Assembly: GCA_020852965.1 (NCBI GenBank)
Contig: JADYZV010000166.1
Span: forward strand, 1-32,176
Source: Pirellulaceae bacterium
GTDB lineage: Bacteria; Planctomycetota; Planctomycetia; Pirellulales; Pirellulaceae
Length of the DNA stretch: 32,176 nucleotides
Direction of reading: 5' to 3'
Part shown: one piece after another, positions 17,547 through 32,176 of the stretch
How positions within the stretch are numbered: position 1 is the first letter of the stretch
Layout of the letters: the number at the start of each line of letters is the position of its first letter
Made by a program: the position numbers and the translations under genes
Notes under the pieces: model-generated
The model's database searches: none
Seen by the model: only the letters and a program-made list of their open reading frames with translations
Told to the model about the DNA's origin: nothing

Positions 17547-18212
17547 ATGTCGACGCTTGTCAATGCCGCTGTAGCTGGCAGTTTGTCCGAGTTATTAATT
17601 GAGCTAGGAGGCGTTTCTGCGGATCGAGTGCTGCGTGATCCGCTTCCAGGCAAGGCAACCTTCGATGATCTGTTGAAGGTCAACGAGTGCGGCCGATGCT
17701 ATGAACTGGTGGATGGAACATTGGTGGAGAAAGCGATGGGGTGGCAAGAATCGTTGATTGCGTTGGCCCTGGGAAGCCTGCTGCGAGATTTTGTCAATTC
17801 GAAGAATCTGGGCATGGTAACCGGTCCCGATGGGTTCACACGGATTCTCGGATCGCTCGTGCGTGGTCCGGATGTCGCATTCTATTCATGGACGCGGTTG
17901 CCCAATCAGCGATTGCCCGAAGAAAAGATTCCCGAATGCGTCCCCGACTTGGCGGTCGAAGTCTTGAGCTTGGGCAATACGCTGGCAGAGATGTCTCGCA
18001 AACGCCGCGAGTATTTTCATGCAGGAGTGCGATTGGTATGGATGGTTGATCCACGTCAGCGAACCGTGGCCGTATATTCCAGTATCACGCAGTATTCGAT
18101 CCTAGATGCATCTCAAGTGCTCGAAGGGGGCGATGTTCTAGTGGGATTGAGAATTGAACTCGCCGAACTCTTTTCGGAATTGGACCGGCAGGGACCGGCT
18201 CAGCCTGATTGA
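17547..18212 (+). CDS. Uma2-family (DUF820) PD-(D/E)XK nuclease-like protein
   Basis: A 221-residue protein of the Uma2 family, which has a restriction-endonuclease fold and is greatly expanded in planctomycetes and cyanobacteria. The expected active-site residues are present: RGPDVAF (D109), PDLAVEVLS (D134, E138) and RKRREYF (K152 or neighbours), followed by VWMVDP. The N-terminus has a 35-residue extension before the usual FDDLLKV start of the fold. ATG 17547 follows AAGAGG at 5 nt. A second Uma2 gene lies 75 bp downstream. The biological role of the family is not settled; nuclease activity is predicted by fold only. Confidence 0.9.
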   Translation: MSTLVNAAVAGSLSELLIELGGVSADRVLRDPLPGKATFDDLLKVNECGRCYELVDGTLVEKAMGWQESLIALALGSLLRDFVNSKNLGMVTGPDGFTRILGSLVRGPDVAFYSWTRLPNQRLPEEKIPECVPDLAVEVLSLGNTLAEMSRKRREYFHAGVRLVWMVDPRQRTVAVYSSITQYSILDASQVLEGGDVLVGLRIELAELFSELDRQGPAQPD

Positions 18213-18287: not shown

Positions 18288-18938
18288 ATGTCTACAATCG
18301 AGCGAGCAGCCCGTCTCGACGGAGAGCAGCGCACTCTCATTCGCGATGTCAGCTACGCTTTTTACAAACAGTTCTGCGAAGCCATAGGTGAACAACCCAT
18401 CCGCTTGAGTTATATCGATGGCATGTTGGAAATCATGGTAACCAAGAACCCACATGAGTACTATAAGAAGATGCTTGCCAAGCTAATTGAAGCTACCGTG
18501 CTCGAAGGTAACATTCCGGTGCGCAGCGGCGGGAACATGACCTTCCAACGCGATGACTTGGAGAAAGGTTTCGAGCCCGACGAGTGTTGGTGGATCGCTC
18601 ACGAAGAGCAAGTTCGCCGTAAAACGGAGTTTGATTTTAAGATCGATCCGGCACCCGATTTGGCCGTTGAGATCGAGATGAGTCGATCGTTGGTCAATCG
18701 AATTAGCATCTATGCGGCCATCGGTGTCGCCGAGATTTGGCGTTTCGATGGAAGCAAGTTGCGGTTTTGTCACTTGCAGTCCGATGGGACATACAAAGAT
18801 TGCACGAGCAGTTTGTCTTTTCCCTTTCTCGGCCCGGCTGATTTGCTACCCTACTTGGCCGTCGACGACGATTGCGATGAAACCACACGCATTCGACAGT
18901 ATGTACAATGGCTGCGGGAACAAGGGCACTCGGTTTAA
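18288..18938 (+). CDS. Uma2-family (DUF820) PD-(D/E)XK nuclease-like protein, second copy
   Basis: A 216-residue Uma2-family protein. FEPDECWW (D98) and PDLAVEIEMS (D124, E128) give the acidic active-site residues, but the position expected to carry Lys (NRISIYAAIG, R138) has Arg, so catalysis may be altered. This is a different subfamily from its upstream neighbour: the N-terminus (YKQFCEAI, YIDGMLEIM) and the tail are not alike, so it is not a recent tandem duplicate. The start codon follows GAGGAG at about 11 nt. The gene ends 13 bp before the 18952-19015 inverted repeat. Confidence 0.9.
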   Translation: MSTIERAARLDGEQRTLIRDVSYAFYKQFCEAIGEQPIRLSYIDGMLEIMVTKNPHEYYKKMLAKLIEATVLEGNIPVRSGGNMTFQRDDLEKGFEPDECWWIAHEEQVRRKTEFDFKIDPAPDLAVEIEMSRSLVNRISIYAAIGVAEIWRFDGSKLRFCHLQSDGTYKDCTSSLSFPFLGPADLLPYLAVDDDCDETTRIRQYVQWLREQGHSV

Positions 18939-23707: not shown

Positions 23708-23876
23708 TTGGAAAGAACGGGCGTTTCATTCGCAAGTCGCCTATCGAAGGTTTCCGCCACGCTTCACATTCGGCTATCAAATCTGCGGTTTCATCTCTGT
23801 ATCAAATTGTGAGTTGCGTAACTTCAGATGATAACAATGGCCTCAGAGTATTGGAATTGTGATTATAATCGCAGCT

Positions 23877-25175
23877 ATGAAACATCTACCACTTGCCCTC
23901 GCGGCCCTCGTACTGTCTGTTTTTGTACCGGCACTAGTTCAGGCGCAGCCCGAACGCTTTCAAGCGGGCGCGGCGAAACGTGACATCACACCGCAGGAAC
24001 CAGTCCCGATGTGGGGCTATGGCGCTCGTCATGCGGCCCTTTCCGAAGGTGTCCTCGATCCGCTGTTTGCCTCGGCGGTGGTCATACAAGCCGGCGATGA
24101 AAAACTGGCGATCGTAGGCCTGGATTTAGGTCGCTCGCCGTCCGAAGCTTCGCTGGAGAGAATTCGCGAGCGGATTAAGAGCGAAGCGGGGATTGAGCAT
24201 GCCATGATCGCCGGCTCGCACACCCACCATGGCCCAGTGCTCGAGTTGAGCAATGCGCCTGGCAAAGGACAGGGACGATTCGATGCAGCCTTGCGCTACT
24301 ACCAACAGATGGAGGATGCCATTGTCGAGGCTATAGTAGAAGCCAATCAGCGTATGGTACCGGCCAAGCTGGCTAGCGCGACGGTCGAGCTCGAAGGCTA
24401 CAACCGCAATCGTCACTCGAAGCTCAAACCAGCTCCGCTCGATACGAGTCTCAGCGTATTGCGCTTTGACAACGCGGATGGAGAGCCCATTGTGGTACTG
24501 GTCAACTTTACTGGGCATCCGACAAGCGTCCCCGGCGAGACGCTCAAGTTCTCCGCCGATTACGTAGGTGCCATGAAGGATAAAGTGGAGGCCGAGTTGG
24601 GTGGTGTTGCTATTTTCATGCAGGGTGCATCGGGCGATTTGTCGATCAACAAAGGTCCTGACTCGGATCACGTCATCTATGGACAAGCGCTTGGTAGTGA
24701 AGTGGTGCGTCTAGCGCAGACGTTGCAGCCGGTGGAGGTCGCCAAGCCTTCATTGAAGGTGCGCGAAGAGCGGTTTCAATTTGCATCGCGGAGCAATTTC
24801 AATAACCCCCTGGTTCGTGGCGCCTACTCGGTCGCCTTCTTTCCGGAATTGATCGCCAATTTTGTCGACGAATATACCGACGGCATTCGCCCCAGGCTAA
24901 CGGTGGCTGTGCTCAATGGTGAACTGGGCTTCGTCGGCGGCTCTGGGGAGTTCTTCTGCGCCCATGCCATTCGGCTGAGAGAGCGAGCTCGCGTCGAACG
25001 ACTGTTTTTCTTCGGCTACTGCAATGGTTACCATCAGTACTTTCCCACGATCGAAGCGGTCGCCGAAGGGGGCTATGGGGCCGACAGTCAAGTTGCCCCG
25101 GCCGAAGTGGGTGCCGGAGAGAAATTGATGAACGCCGCGCTGATGTGGCTCTACGAATTGCGCGGGAAATTGTAA
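23877..25175 (+). CDS. Exported neutral/alkaline ceramidase-like protein
   Basis: A 432-residue protein with a signal peptide (KHLPLALAALVLSVFVPALV, cleavage near AQA). It matches the N-terminal domain of the neutral/alkaline non-lysosomal ceramidase family: AGAAKRDITPQEPVPMWGYG at 30-49, GSHTHHGP (zinc-ligand His at 115-118), NFTGHPTSVPG (second His), GASGDLS and, near the end, FFGYCNGYHQYFPTIEA. True ceramidases are 650 or more residues with a C-terminal immunoglobulin-like domain, which is missing here; planctomycetes have many such short forms and their substrates are unknown, so a ceramide role is not implied. ATG 23877 is preferred to GTG 23859 because of the signal peptide. TATAAT at 23864-23869 lies just before it. 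Confidence 0.88.
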   Translation: MKHLPLALAALVLSVFVPALVQAQPERFQAGAAKRDITPQEPVPMWGYGARHAALSEGVLDPLFASAVVIQAGDEKLAIVGLDLGRSPSEASLERIRERIKSEAGIEHAMIAGSHTHHGPVLELSNAPGKGQGRFDAALRYYQQMEDAIVEAIVEANQRMVPAKLASATVELEGYNRNRHSKLKPAPLDTSLSVLRFDNADGEPIVVLVNFTGHPTSVPGETLKFSADYVGAMKDKVEAELGGVAIFMQGASGDLSINKGPDSDHVIYGQALGSEVVRLAQTLQPVEVAKPSLKVREERFQFASRSNFNNPLVRGAYSVAFFPELIANFVDEYTDGIRPRLTVAVLNGELGFVGGSGEFFCAHAIRLRERARVERLFFFGYCNGYHQYFPTIEAVAEGGYGADSQVAPAEVGAGEKLMNAALMWLYELRGKL

Positions 25176-25194: not shown

Positions 25195-25779
25195 CTATTG
25201 TTCGACAGCTTCGTCGGTTGTGATTTCGACCATCGCGAACAGCTCGCTGATAGGGAGACTGAAACCAGGGAGCAGTGCGTCAGTCAATTCACCGTCGTCC
25301 GACAGAATGCGCACGTCGGTTGGGCTATCGTAAATGTGAACTTCGCGTTGCTTGGCCGAAACTACCCACACGCGTTCGACCCCAGCTCGGAAGTACTCGC
25401 GAGTTTTCTCGCGTATCTCTTCCCACGTATTGCTAGCGCAGATGATTTCTACGGCCAAGTTCGGGATACACTTCAGTCCATCCGTATCGGGAACCGGCTT
25501 GTTCATCGGCCAGCGCGAAGCGGAGACAAATGCCATATCCGGCCGTCGCTTGCGCTTTACATGAGGTGATAAATCGAAGAGTACCTCCATCAGCCCGTGC
25601 CCTAGTTGTTGATTGAGTGCAATGGAGCCAATCTTCAGGTGTAAGAAATTGGCAATAAATAGTTGCAAGGCTCCCATCGTTGGTTTCTCCTCGATTACAC
25701 CGTCGATGACTTCATAGAGGTTTTCGCTGGCGTTTAGGGCCAACAAGGCTGGCTGCGCGTTGGATTCAATGGTTAACAT
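25195..25779 (-). CDS. Uma2-family (DUF820) PD-(D/E)XK nuclease-like protein, third copy
   Basis: A 194-residue Uma2-family protein. The fold starts LYEVIDGVIEEKPTMGALQ (21-39). Active-site candidates are RRPDMAF (D81), PNLAVEIIC (N107, E111) and EKTREYF (K125), followed by RVWVVSAKQREVHIY. Asn at 107 replaces the Asp found in the two other copies in this window, which could reduce metal binding. The gene converges on the ceramidase-like gene with only 19 bp between the stop codons. It is not close in sequence to the other two Uma2 proteins. Confidence 0.88.
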   Translation of the reverse strand: MLTIESNAQPALLALNASENLYEVIDGVIEEKPTMGALQLFIANFLHLKIGSIALNQQLGHGLMEVLFDLSPHVKRKRRPDMAFVSASRWPMNKPVPDTDGLKCIPNLAVEIICASNTWEEIREKTREYFRAGVERVWVVSAKQREVHIYDSPTDVRILSDDGELTDALLPGFSLPISELFAMVEITTDEAVEQ

Positions 25780-29443: not shown

Positions 29444-31741
29444 TTAGCTAGTCAAAACGCGGCGGATGTCGAGGGCTGCTTGCTGAGGCGAGAGGGCGGT
29501 GGTGGCGATGCCGGAGATGACTTTGGTGATGTTGTGATCGATGGCGCCAGTCGTCTGCCACTGTTCACCACTCGCCGCAGTCAGATAGGCGGACAGTGTG
29601 TGGTGTCCGCTCCCTGGTCGCTCGCCGATGATGTGTACGAGCGTGTGTTTTCCCTCTAAGCCGGCGAACAACGCCTCGCCAATGCGATAGCCTGCGCGAA
29701 CACGGCCAGATTTGATCACAATGGTTTCAGGGGCGGTGCGGTAGCCGGCTTCCGCTAGTTCACTTCGCAGGCGCTCAAGCAGGGGGTGGAGATTCCCGTC
29801 GTCCATGGCGGCTAAGGCGTTGAGCCCTTCGGAGACGACTATCTGCACGTCGTAGCGTCCCGCTTGTCGCTCGCGCAGTGATCGTATTTGTGCTTGAGAA
29901 TCGACCCCCAATCGCTCACCGCCGGCGGGGCGCAGAATGTAGTCGAGCCGTCCTTGCGACGTGGACTCGACGACCAAACCGTCGGGGATCTGTTCGATAA
30001 AGTCGTCGCGCCATTCGACCCATATGCAGCGTTTGGAATCTTGGTAGATATGTTCGATCTCGGAGCGTAATTTGGGAGCGAGCTCCGAGGGGCGCGAACC
30101 ATAGCCTTGAGCGATGAACACACCTCGCTTACGGATCTCCGAGAGCTGTTGCTTGCCAGCGGCCAAGATGTCTGCATCGCTGCGCTTGTCGGCTTGACGA
30201 CGGCAGTACTGCAAGTAAACCCATAGCGGATCGCCAAAGTGCTGCGTCGGATTGCCGCCTGAGTCGATCACGCCCAACTCCATGAAGAACTTCCACATGC
30301 CATCGTTGACACGGAAGCCGAACTGCTCACGCAATCGCACGTGATCTTGATAGCCCGTCGTCAAATAGCCTAGCATGGGATCGATCTTGGTGGGCAAGGC
30401 CATGAGATAAGCCGGATTGGCGGGCGCGATTTGTTCCAGACACCAATCGAGGTCATCCAGAGTGACGTCCATGTGCAGCGTCGAACAGACATCCAAGCCG
30501 ATCGTCAGGCCGTGCAGCTTGCCCATCACGATATCTTCCAAGCAGCAGCGGACCAATTGCTCGCGCGTCCTAAACACCTCGGGGCCGATAAAGCCCGCTA
30601 CGTCGTTGAGGTGAACCCAGGCGCGCTCGGTATCCCAATCGGTCCCGCGTGCTTGTGCCATGTTCCGCGCCAGTTGCCGCGTGAAACCGTACTTGCGCGA
30701 CTCGTGCAGGACCATGTCAAAACCGTGGTCGTGGCCATTGGTGAAGTCGGCACCTTGGCCCGTTTCAAAGTACAACCCAAAGCGACCTTGTCGTCGCCGC
30801 GCGTAGTCGACCATCTTTTCGATCGTGACGTCGAAGGTCGCGTTGGCGGTGTCATTGCCTGCGATGCTCTGGAACCACAGCTCGGTCGATCCAGGCTGTT
30901 GTTCTTCGGCGGCGGCTTGAACGTCGATGTGCGATAGCACGCAGTGGGGAAGTAGGTGGTCGACGCCAAACGTGACCAACACCTCTTGCAATGTTCGCTC
31001 GACGGCTAGCACCGAAGCGACTTCGCTGGAGACCGGATTGGTGCCTATTAAAACATCGCCGACAGCATAGGCAAACGCATCGAAGACTTGCCAACGTATG
31101 TCATCGACGTTGTCGGTCGGTGAATTGGGTTGAACGCGCGCACCGAGATAACCCTTGGCACCTATGTTGCTTCCGGGCAGTGGATTGAATATCTTGGCAC
31201 CGAGCGAGATCAGCTCGTGGTTGGACATGAGTTTCACGAGGCAACCGATCACATCGCTGGAGAGGCCAGGCATCAGGGGCTTGATCTCAGCTTCCGTGGC
31301 TGAGAGTAGAAATTCTTTCAATTGGCCAAGGGTCGCCTGCGAGAACGCGGTCAGCGCCTGGGGCTCGAGCCCTTGCTGTAGAAAGTGAAACAAGTTGTCG
31401 CGTAGGGGCGGATGGGTATCGATTGATTTTAGGCGGGTGTTGGCGAGTAGTTTACGGGCCCGGGCGCGCGAGTTCTCATCGGCCGCGCTGACACCGACAA
31501 TGGCGTCTCCCTCCTTGAATTCATTGGCCGCACCGAGCAGGCGTTTATAGAGACGTTCATCGAATTGGCCCGAGTTGCGTTGCATGTAGGCGAATAGATC
31601 TTCATCGAGGCCAACTTCACCAATCGCTATTCCCGGCTGCAGTTCATTTCCAGCGGCGCTGGACGCTCGCCAGCCTGCCGCAGTGCTCAAGCCAGCGGCT
31701 ATCGAGCCCAGAAAGAAACGTCGACCAATGAGCGGTGTCAT
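29444..31741 (-). CDS. eutBC: Fused EutB-EutC ethanolamine ammonia-lyase with apparent Tat signal
   Basis: A 765-residue protein joining the large and small subunits of adenosylcobalamin-dependent ethanolamine ammonia-lyase, which converts ethanolamine to acetaldehyde and ammonia. EutB spans about 35-510: FDAFAYAVGDVLIGTNPV (220-237), LYFETGQGAD (323-332), GFIGPEVF (383-390) and LEDIVMGKLHGLTIGLDVC (401-419). A linker of about 80 residues follows. EutC spans about 595-765: LDYILRPAGGERL, QIVVSEGLNALAAMDDG (633-649) and HIIGERPGSGHHTLSAYLT. The N-terminus GRRFFLGSIAAGLSTAAG has the twin-arginine pattern followed by a hydrophobic stretch and an Ala-rich cleavage region, absent from ordinary EutB. 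ATG 31741 follows GGAG. No eutA, eutH, microcompartment or B12 riboswitch is visible nearby. Confidence 0.93.
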   Translation of the reverse strand: MTPLIGRRFFLGSIAAGLSTAAGWRASSAAGNELQPGIAIGEVGLDEDLFAYMQRNSGQFDERLYKRLLGAANEFKEGDAIVGVSAADENSRARARKLLANTRLKSIDTHPPLRDNLFHFLQQGLEPQALTAFSQATLGQLKEFLLSATEAEIKPLMPGLSSDVIGCLVKLMSNHELISLGAKIFNPLPGSNIGAKGYLGARVQPNSPTDNVDDIRWQVFDAFAYAVGDVLIGTNPVSSEVASVLAVERTLQEVLVTFGVDHLLPHCVLSHIDVQAAAEEQQPGSTELWFQSIAGNDTANATFDVTIEKMVDYARRRQGRFGLYFETGQGADFTNGHDHGFDMVLHESRKYGFTRQLARNMAQARGTDWDTERAWVHLNDVAGFIGPEVFRTREQLVRCCLEDIVMGKLHGLTIGLDVCSTLHMDVTLDDLDWCLEQIAPANPAYLMALPTKIDPMLGYLTTGYQDHVRLREQFGFRVNDGMWKFFMELGVIDSGGNPTQHFGDPLWVYLQYCRRQADKRSDADILAAGKQQLSEIRKRGVFIAQGYGSRPSELAPKLRSEIEHIYQDSKRCIWVEWRDDFIEQIPDGLVVESTSQGRLDYILRPAGGERLGVDSQAQIRSLRERQAGRYDVQIVVSEGLNALAAMDDGNLHPLLERLRSELAEAGYRTAPETIVIKSGRVRAGYRIGEALFAGLEGKHTLVHIIGERPGSGHHTLSAYLTAASGEQWQTTGAIDHNITKVISGIATTALSPQQAALDIRRVLTS

Positions 31742-31828
31742 GTGTAGTTCTCCGGAGTGGAATGCGTCGAGCGGTAGTGGGCGCGATGCTTGTGCTCAGG
31801 TAATTCGCTGGATGAAGCGGGTAGCAAC

Positions 31829-31908
31829 ACCGACGGCGGAGCGTCGGGCCACATTCGTTGCAAATTTTTTGGTAAACCGACGGCGGAGCGTCGAGCCACA
31901 TTCGTTGC
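31829..31908 (+). repeat. Family B palindromic repeat, two copies 47 bp apart
   Basis: Copies at 31829-31862 and 31876-31908 share ACCGACGGCGGAGCGTCG and then GCCACATTCGTTGC, differing at one base in the core. CCGACG and CGTCGG form the stem in copy 1. The same repeat occurs inside the efflux adaptor gene at 12532-12562. They lie upstream of the ethanolamine ammonia-lyase gene and just past the end of the Mpo1-like gene. Confidence 0.85.
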
Positions 31909-31919
31909 TACACCTTAGG

Positions 31920-32176
31920 TTATTCGCCCGACGTGGCCGAGTTGGTGCGGAAAAGGCGTTTTCCGAGTGCGTCGAGCACCCACAGCGGACCGATTAACAG
32001 GTACTGCAGATCCTCAAAAAACGCGGGCTTCTTGCCTTCGATTTTATGCCCAATGAACTGTCCGATCCAGGCTACCACAAAGACGACCAACGCGAGCGGC
32101 CAAATCGAGCTATTCGTCAGCGATTCGTAGAGGGCGACTAGGGCCAATACGCCGGCGGACCAGACCAACATCCCAA
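31920..32176 (-). CDS. Mpo1/DUF962-like membrane protein, C-terminal part
   Basis: The last 83 or more residues of a protein whose start lies beyond the window edge. It contains two or three membrane segments (LVWSAGVLALVALYES, WPLALVVFVVAWIGQFIGH, YLLIGPLWVLDAL) and the family pattern QFIGHKIEGKKPAFFEDLQY. DUF962 includes yeast Mpo1, a dioxygenase of fatty-acid alpha-oxidation; the His of the GHKIEG motif fits its metal-binding His. Bacterial members are poorly characterised. The ATG at 32171 is probably internal, because the frame stays open to the window end. It ends just after the family B repeats. Confidence 0.75.
   Translation of the reverse strand, partial: GMLVWSAGVLALVALYESLTNSSIWPLALVVFVVAWIGQFIGHKIEGKKPAFFEDLQYLLIGPLWVLDALGKRLFRTNSATSGE

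Follow-up and report, generated by a model that had tools for sequence, protein, structure and literature searches.

A single-chain EutB-EutC ethanolamine ammonia-lyase with a Tat-type leader: a probable family of B12 enzymes acting outside the cytoplasm

The described systems close to the protein reported here include the canonical two-gene ethanolamine ammonia-lyase (EAL), as in E. coli, and, among corrinoid enzymes, the reductive dehalogenase RdhA/PceA. According to PMC5821096, damage to the adenosylcobalamin (AdoCbl) of EAL normally requires EutA and ATP. RdhA/PceA is a corrinoid enzyme that carries a Tat signal, to which the dedicated chaperone PceT binds (PMC8905343). Among the open-licence papers in PMC none contained both "ethanolamine ammonia-lyase" and "twin-arginine", and no published account of an exported EAL was found among the open-licence PMC titles and abstract openings listed.

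The fused gene and its surroundings

The window, that is the whole stretch of 32,176 nucleotides from a Pirellulaceae bacterium that was analysed, contains a fused eutBC gene with the following features.

29444..31741, minus strand: intact ORF of the fused EutB-EutC ethanolamine ammonia-lyase, 765 aa, ATG start
31750..31753, minus strand: GGAG resembling a Shine-Dalgarno site, 8 nt before the leader's ATG
31652..31741, minus strand: Tat-type leader with RR motif, residues 1-30; putative cleavage near residues 29-30
31718..31723, minus strand: twin-arginine codons, residues 7-8
30242..31549, minus strand: EutB catalytic domain, residues 65-500 (Pfam 446.8 bits, cut-off 25)
Within the EutB domain: R202, Q204, N235, E326, F384 and D417, corresponding to R160, Q162, N193, E287, F329 and D362 of E. 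coli
30011..30241, minus strand: inter-domain segment of 77 residues (501-577), mostly predicted with high confidence
29453..30010, minus strand: EutC domain, residues 578-763 (Pfam 101.6 bits, cut-off 25.8; the match starts at model position 48 of 235)

An earlier note on this DNA had described one 765-residue EutB-EutC chain with a twin-arginine leader. Both observations were confirmed: the ORF translates as quoted, the two Pfam domains lie in a single reading frame, and the leader is of the RRFFL type with the RR pair at residues 7-8. With the NCBIfam models EutB scored 586 bits (cut-off 554), and EutC obtained 79.2 bits with an equivalog model whose cut-off is 230. The closest solved sequences were the EAL heavy chains 2qez (Listeria) and 3abo (E. 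coli), followed by light chains. An AlphaFold model built with 41 aligned proteins had a mean pLDDT of 89, and Foldseek placed 3abo_A at rank 1 and 3abo_B at rank 9. Because residues 1-33 had pLDDT values below 50, the leader lies outside the predicted fold. There is no Cys in these 33 residues, and the window protein therefore lacks a lipobox. The next in-frame ATG encodes Met53 and is not preceded by GGAG.

As the earlier note had stated, neither eutA nor any other eut gene was found among the window ORFs scanned. The ectoine model DoeB gave one match among these ORFs, at chance level (18.6 bits, cut-off 402.7). An Mpo1-like (2-hydroxy-palmitic acid dioxygenase-like) gene (31920-32171, minus strand) precedes eutBC on its strand, at the contig end. 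The spacer upstream of eutBC (31829-31910) contains accgacggcggagcgtcg, two bases, then ccacattcgttgc; the unit is present twice and is perhaps a dispersed intergenic repeat. Elsewhere the 32-kb window carries three genes for Uma2-type putative endonucleases (17547-18212 and 18288-18938, plus strand; 25195-25779, minus strand) and a ceramidase-like gene (23859-25175, plus strand; Pfam 58.6 bits, cut-off 32.1), which is possibly lipid-related.

The leader among relatives

EutB was detected in 30 of 392 genomes sampled from the phylum, the window's own included, and in 21 of 60 relative genomes, two genomes being common to both samples. The loci formed three groups: canonical separate EutB (group A, 15 loci), a distant fused EutBC (group B, 6 loci) and the fused clade of the window (29 loci). 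A scan of genome contigs, which covers the closest relatives, gave 80 named loci, the best 80 of 560 relatives. These are mostly from Planctomycetota, with Myxococcota, Acidobacteriota, Bacteroidota, Thermodesulfobacteriota, Pseudomonadota and others also represented; since many relatives are MAGs, isolated odd taxa may be binning errors. The closest named relatives of the window's own genome are likewise Planctomycetota. Relatives with 51-52% identity over 97-99% of the length were found in 25 plasmid records (Sinorhizobium, Ensifer and one Pararhizobium), the carriers including S. meliloti Rm41, BL225C, SM11 and GR4. The presence of the gene on Sinorhizobium meliloti megaplasmids makes it experimentally testable. 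RR leaders were seen in all three plasmid-borne rhizobial proteins whose N-termini were read (L133, L134, L135). Three S. meliloti records, different from these, name the fused protein just EutB, an example of how annotation transfer hides location.

The clade sample, which includes the best 80 of the 560 relatives, consisted of 109 loci with the window; 103 were distinct, and three truncated ones (L049, L087, L116) left 100 complete N-termini. Judged by motif, 92 of the 100, the window protein among them, have a Tat-type leader, one (L114) has a Sec-like leader and seven are leaderless (L024, L028, L101, L117, L125, L128, L130). L114 (L114:9791-10060) is a Riflebacteria relative in which the Sec-like, not Tat-like, leader precedes the same fused enzyme. 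In the Tat-type members position 0 is R in 92/92, position +1 is R in 91 and K in one, and position +3 is F in 82; positions +6 to +17 are nearly uncharged and most other positions are variable. A permissive pattern recognized an A-x-A-like leader end in 86 of the 92. Because the 92 rows were picked by a pattern demanding R[RK], the invariance of the arginine pair must be weighed together with the eight exceptions.

A Tat-like rule of our own was also applied to the N-termini of the 109 loci, with duplicates still in. It was passed by 89/109 clade loci, by 0/15 canonical EutB and 0/6 distant fused leaderless EutB N-termini, and by 427 of 17,800 shuffles (2.4%) of leaders that had passed. Eight of the 20 loci that failed carry an RRx[FV] leader with a too-short uncharged run (L042 and its duplicate L051, L064, L072, L079, L082, L102, L115) and one, L129, carries RKxF. 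The remaining 11 comprise the seven leaderless loci, the Sec-like L114 and the three truncated ones.

A tree of 123 rows was built with FastTree and rooted with the canonical group. It contains an export clade of 94 rows (support 99), of which 83 are of the Tat form, 9 of the Tat-lipobox form and 1 of the Sec-like form, and one row is truncated. All 93 readable N-termini of this clade carry an export signal; the window's clade has seven members without a leader, and all seven fall outside the export clade. The homologues thus bear out the leader pointed to in the earlier note, with RR (once RK) in 92/100 and the leaderless rows outside the export clade. The simplest reading of the tree is that the fusion preceded the leader, which would have been gained once, with no loss seen. 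The window's clade sits on a very long branch (1.96) and its internal root is therefore uncertain, so the leaderless members may have lost the leader. Two warnings came from the tree program, one about joining the distant fused group through a long branch and one about unusual composition in six rows, L024 and L028 being two of them.

A lipobox-like Cys stands at the leader end in nine clade members, seven recognized by pattern and two (L113, L129) by eye; in L137 an RR or RK leader also ends in a lipobox Cys. The automatic pattern marked 13 loci, six of which, all planctomycete, looked doubtful on visual inspection and were not counted (L052, L056, L057, L063, L086, L110); these may be lipoproteins too. 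The lipobox-like forms occur in several lineages and correspond to four changes on the tree, of which starred branches force at least two. Additional copies were searched for in seven myxobacterial genomes, chosen because their loci already matched. Two full-length copies were present in five of them, and in 5/5 a Tat-lipobox form was paired with a leaderless one; the two remaining genomes have a single copy each, one Tat-lipobox and one leaderless. This pairing within genomes is the strongest sign, as far as sequences go, that the leader decides location.

Active site, genome setting and alternative readings

The equivalents of E. coli R160, Q162, N193, E287, F329 and D362, which we take to be substrate-site or active-site residues, are identical in 101/101 clade members, the window protein included. 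Conservation of this kind across several phyla points to a functional enzyme, and ethanolamine deamination is its simplest assumed role; the substrate of the clade enzyme may have changed. We regard it as unlikely that the protein is exported without being an EAL, whether it acts on another amino alcohol or has lost catalysis. Such a reading could draw on the E257 position, which is T in 100/101 members, on EutC R141 and D211, replaced by E and Y in 101/101, and on a short insertion that precedes the N379-D380 stretch. However, E257 is absent from 15/15 canonical planctomycete EutB as well, E. coli EAL is the best fold match, and the six presumed substrate-site residues are unchanged throughout the clade. 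Clade EutC retains 20 of the 44 columns conserved in canonical EutC, the GERPG stretch included.

The genome setting was compared in 48 genomes, namely all EutB-positive genomes of the 392-genome and 60-relative samples except G394 (partial gene): 28 with the window's clade (one of them, G421, also with a distant fused locus), 5 others with distant fused loci and 15 canonical. TatC, the sole Tat component searched, is present in the window's genome, and so is a PduO-type adenosyltransferase, which was matched in 48/48 genomes. The window's genome has one EutB; nothing in its whole sequence matched EutA, EutH or TIGR00908, the model for the Eat permease. None of the 28 genomes of the window's clade has an Eat-type permease above the cut-off (381.75). 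Such a permease was found in one distant-fused genome and in 4/15 canonical genomes, in the latter always adjoining eutB, and one further canonical genome has a permease beside eutB that scores marginally below the cut-off. The permease contrast is at most suggestive, since weak matches to the model (up to 136 bits) occur in 25/28 genomes of the window's clade and diffusion of ethanolamine is possible at neutral pH (PMC5821096). Among the 48 genomes, EutA above cut-off (5/6) and EutH (2/6) were confined to those with the distant fused type. Absence of EutA was rejected as a mark of export, canonical planctomycete genomes having 0/15 above cut-off too.

No operon or partner emerged from neighbour clustering at 80 loci plus the window: no family occupied a fixed position across the clade, and shared neighbours were limited to near relatives. 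A Pfam scan of 120 of the 128 immediate neighbours (at least 110 aa) gave no conserved partner, no family having more than four members among the 25 of 112 families listed; the scan covered 74 loci that are neither leaderless nor Sec-like, and a rare partner could be missed by it. Neighbour ORFs were taken as longest open frames, which are ill-suited to high-GC myxobacteria (6/10 scanned had no Pfam match).

Two further alternatives concern the N-terminus itself. If the leader were a relic or a start-codon artefact, the enzyme would be cytoplasmic; the in-frame Met53, near the alignment start of the leaderless L024, and the seven leaderless clade members would fit this. Yet GGAG precedes the leader ATG and not Met53, the RR/RK leader is kept in 92/100 members amid freely varying surroundings, and the 94-row export clade contains no leaderless row. 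We consider this explanation quite improbable, and the non-functional relic that the earlier note had offered as its alternative is disfavoured, the leader being free to vary save at the Tat-critical positions and lipoprotein-like in several lineages. In enteric bacteria the N-terminus of EutC targets the microcompartment, and the extension could be imagined to serve similarly, as microcompartment (BMC) shell genes occur in 31/33 genomes of the clade and the distant fused type, the window's included. In the window's genome, however, the shell genes are on contigs C70 and C138 and none is on C166, which carries eutBC; the extension is an RR-hydrophobic signal that sometimes ends in a lipobox-like Cys, and PMC4207490 describes the planctomycete shell locus as one for fucose and rhamnose. 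With a locus free of shell genes and a signal of this type, microcompartment targeting is highly improbable and was rejected.

A putative exported ammonia-lyase and its known counterparts

What the sequences themselves show is that the two subunits are fused, that the active-site residues and the Tat-type leader are conserved, and that the leader has lipobox-like variants. These properties support the Tat-export interpretation of the earlier note, and we give a probability of about 0.76 to the reading that the protein is an AdoCbl-dependent single-chain EAL with a Tat signal peptide, which would be folded, exported by Tat to the periplasm and split ethanolamine there. We infer export in vivo, the site of AdoCbl loading, the activity, and what becomes of the products. 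The chain would be made and folded in the cytoplasm, where AdoCbl would probably be loaded, and the Tat translocase would carry the folded chain into the periplasm, with a lipid anchor in some lineages. The fusion would ensure that both subunits are exported in equal amounts by one signal peptide. Periplasmic ethanolamine, e.g. from phosphatidylethanolamine head groups, would yield ammonia and acetaldehyde, which might cross the inner membrane carrier-free. Because such small products can cross, neither an ethanolamine permease nor, apparently, EutA would be used. Planctomycete membrane invaginations, to which the earlier note had alluded, are not required, as the protein is also present in rhizobia and myxobacteria.

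Several points count against this exported EAL. The periplasm has no ATP, and the EutA/ATP requirement leaves the upkeep of a periplasmic enzyme to be explained; a possible answer is that fresh AdoCbl might arrive through the outer membrane. The Sec-like L114 misfits cofactor loading before export and would need loading outside. The divergence of clade EutC with its missed NCBIfam cut-off, and the absence of a conserved partner gene, are also unfavourable.

If the reading is true, an exported EAL would break the picture of the B12 radical enzyme as confined to the cell interior, and the enzyme would have to keep working with neither ATP nor EutA at hand and no adenosyltransferase nearby. To our knowledge no AdoCbl radical enzyme had been located outside the cytoplasm before, so that this one would be the first. 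The sequences probably represent a family of B12 ammonia-lyases acting outside the cytoplasm, whose tag is kept by most close relatives in several phyla. In the wider form of this proposal, which we hold to be somewhat better than an even bet, a widespread AdoCbl radical enzyme family would comprise Tat-exported, sometimes lipid-anchored EAL that obtain nitrogen and carbon from ethanolamine of membrane origin and need no permease, microcompartment or ATP-driven reactivase.

Canonical EutBC (E. coli 3abo and planctomycete group A) shares with the window's clade the domains of both subunits, the fold and the six active-site residues. It differs in that the subunits have separate genes, a leader is found in 0/15, and a permease gene adjoins eutB in 5/15 genomes (one marginally below cut-off), whereas the clade protein is fused and has a leader. 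The leaderless fused EutBC of Planctomycetota (group B) is likewise one EutB-EutC chain. It is, however, distant (198-226 bits to the window protein) and has a leader in 0/6; EutA adjoins in 3/6 genomes, with EutH within the same cluster in 2/6. Ala occupies the position expected to be D362 in 6/6 (L019, L023, L034, L035, L037, L050), and this enzyme may act on a different amino alcohol. RdhA/PceA differs from EAL in fold and chemistry and is not known to use an AdoCbl radical. A gene for a PceT-like partner was not found for the fused EutBC in the neighbour scans; RdhA/PceA provides a precedent for the export of a corrinoid protein (PMC8905343).
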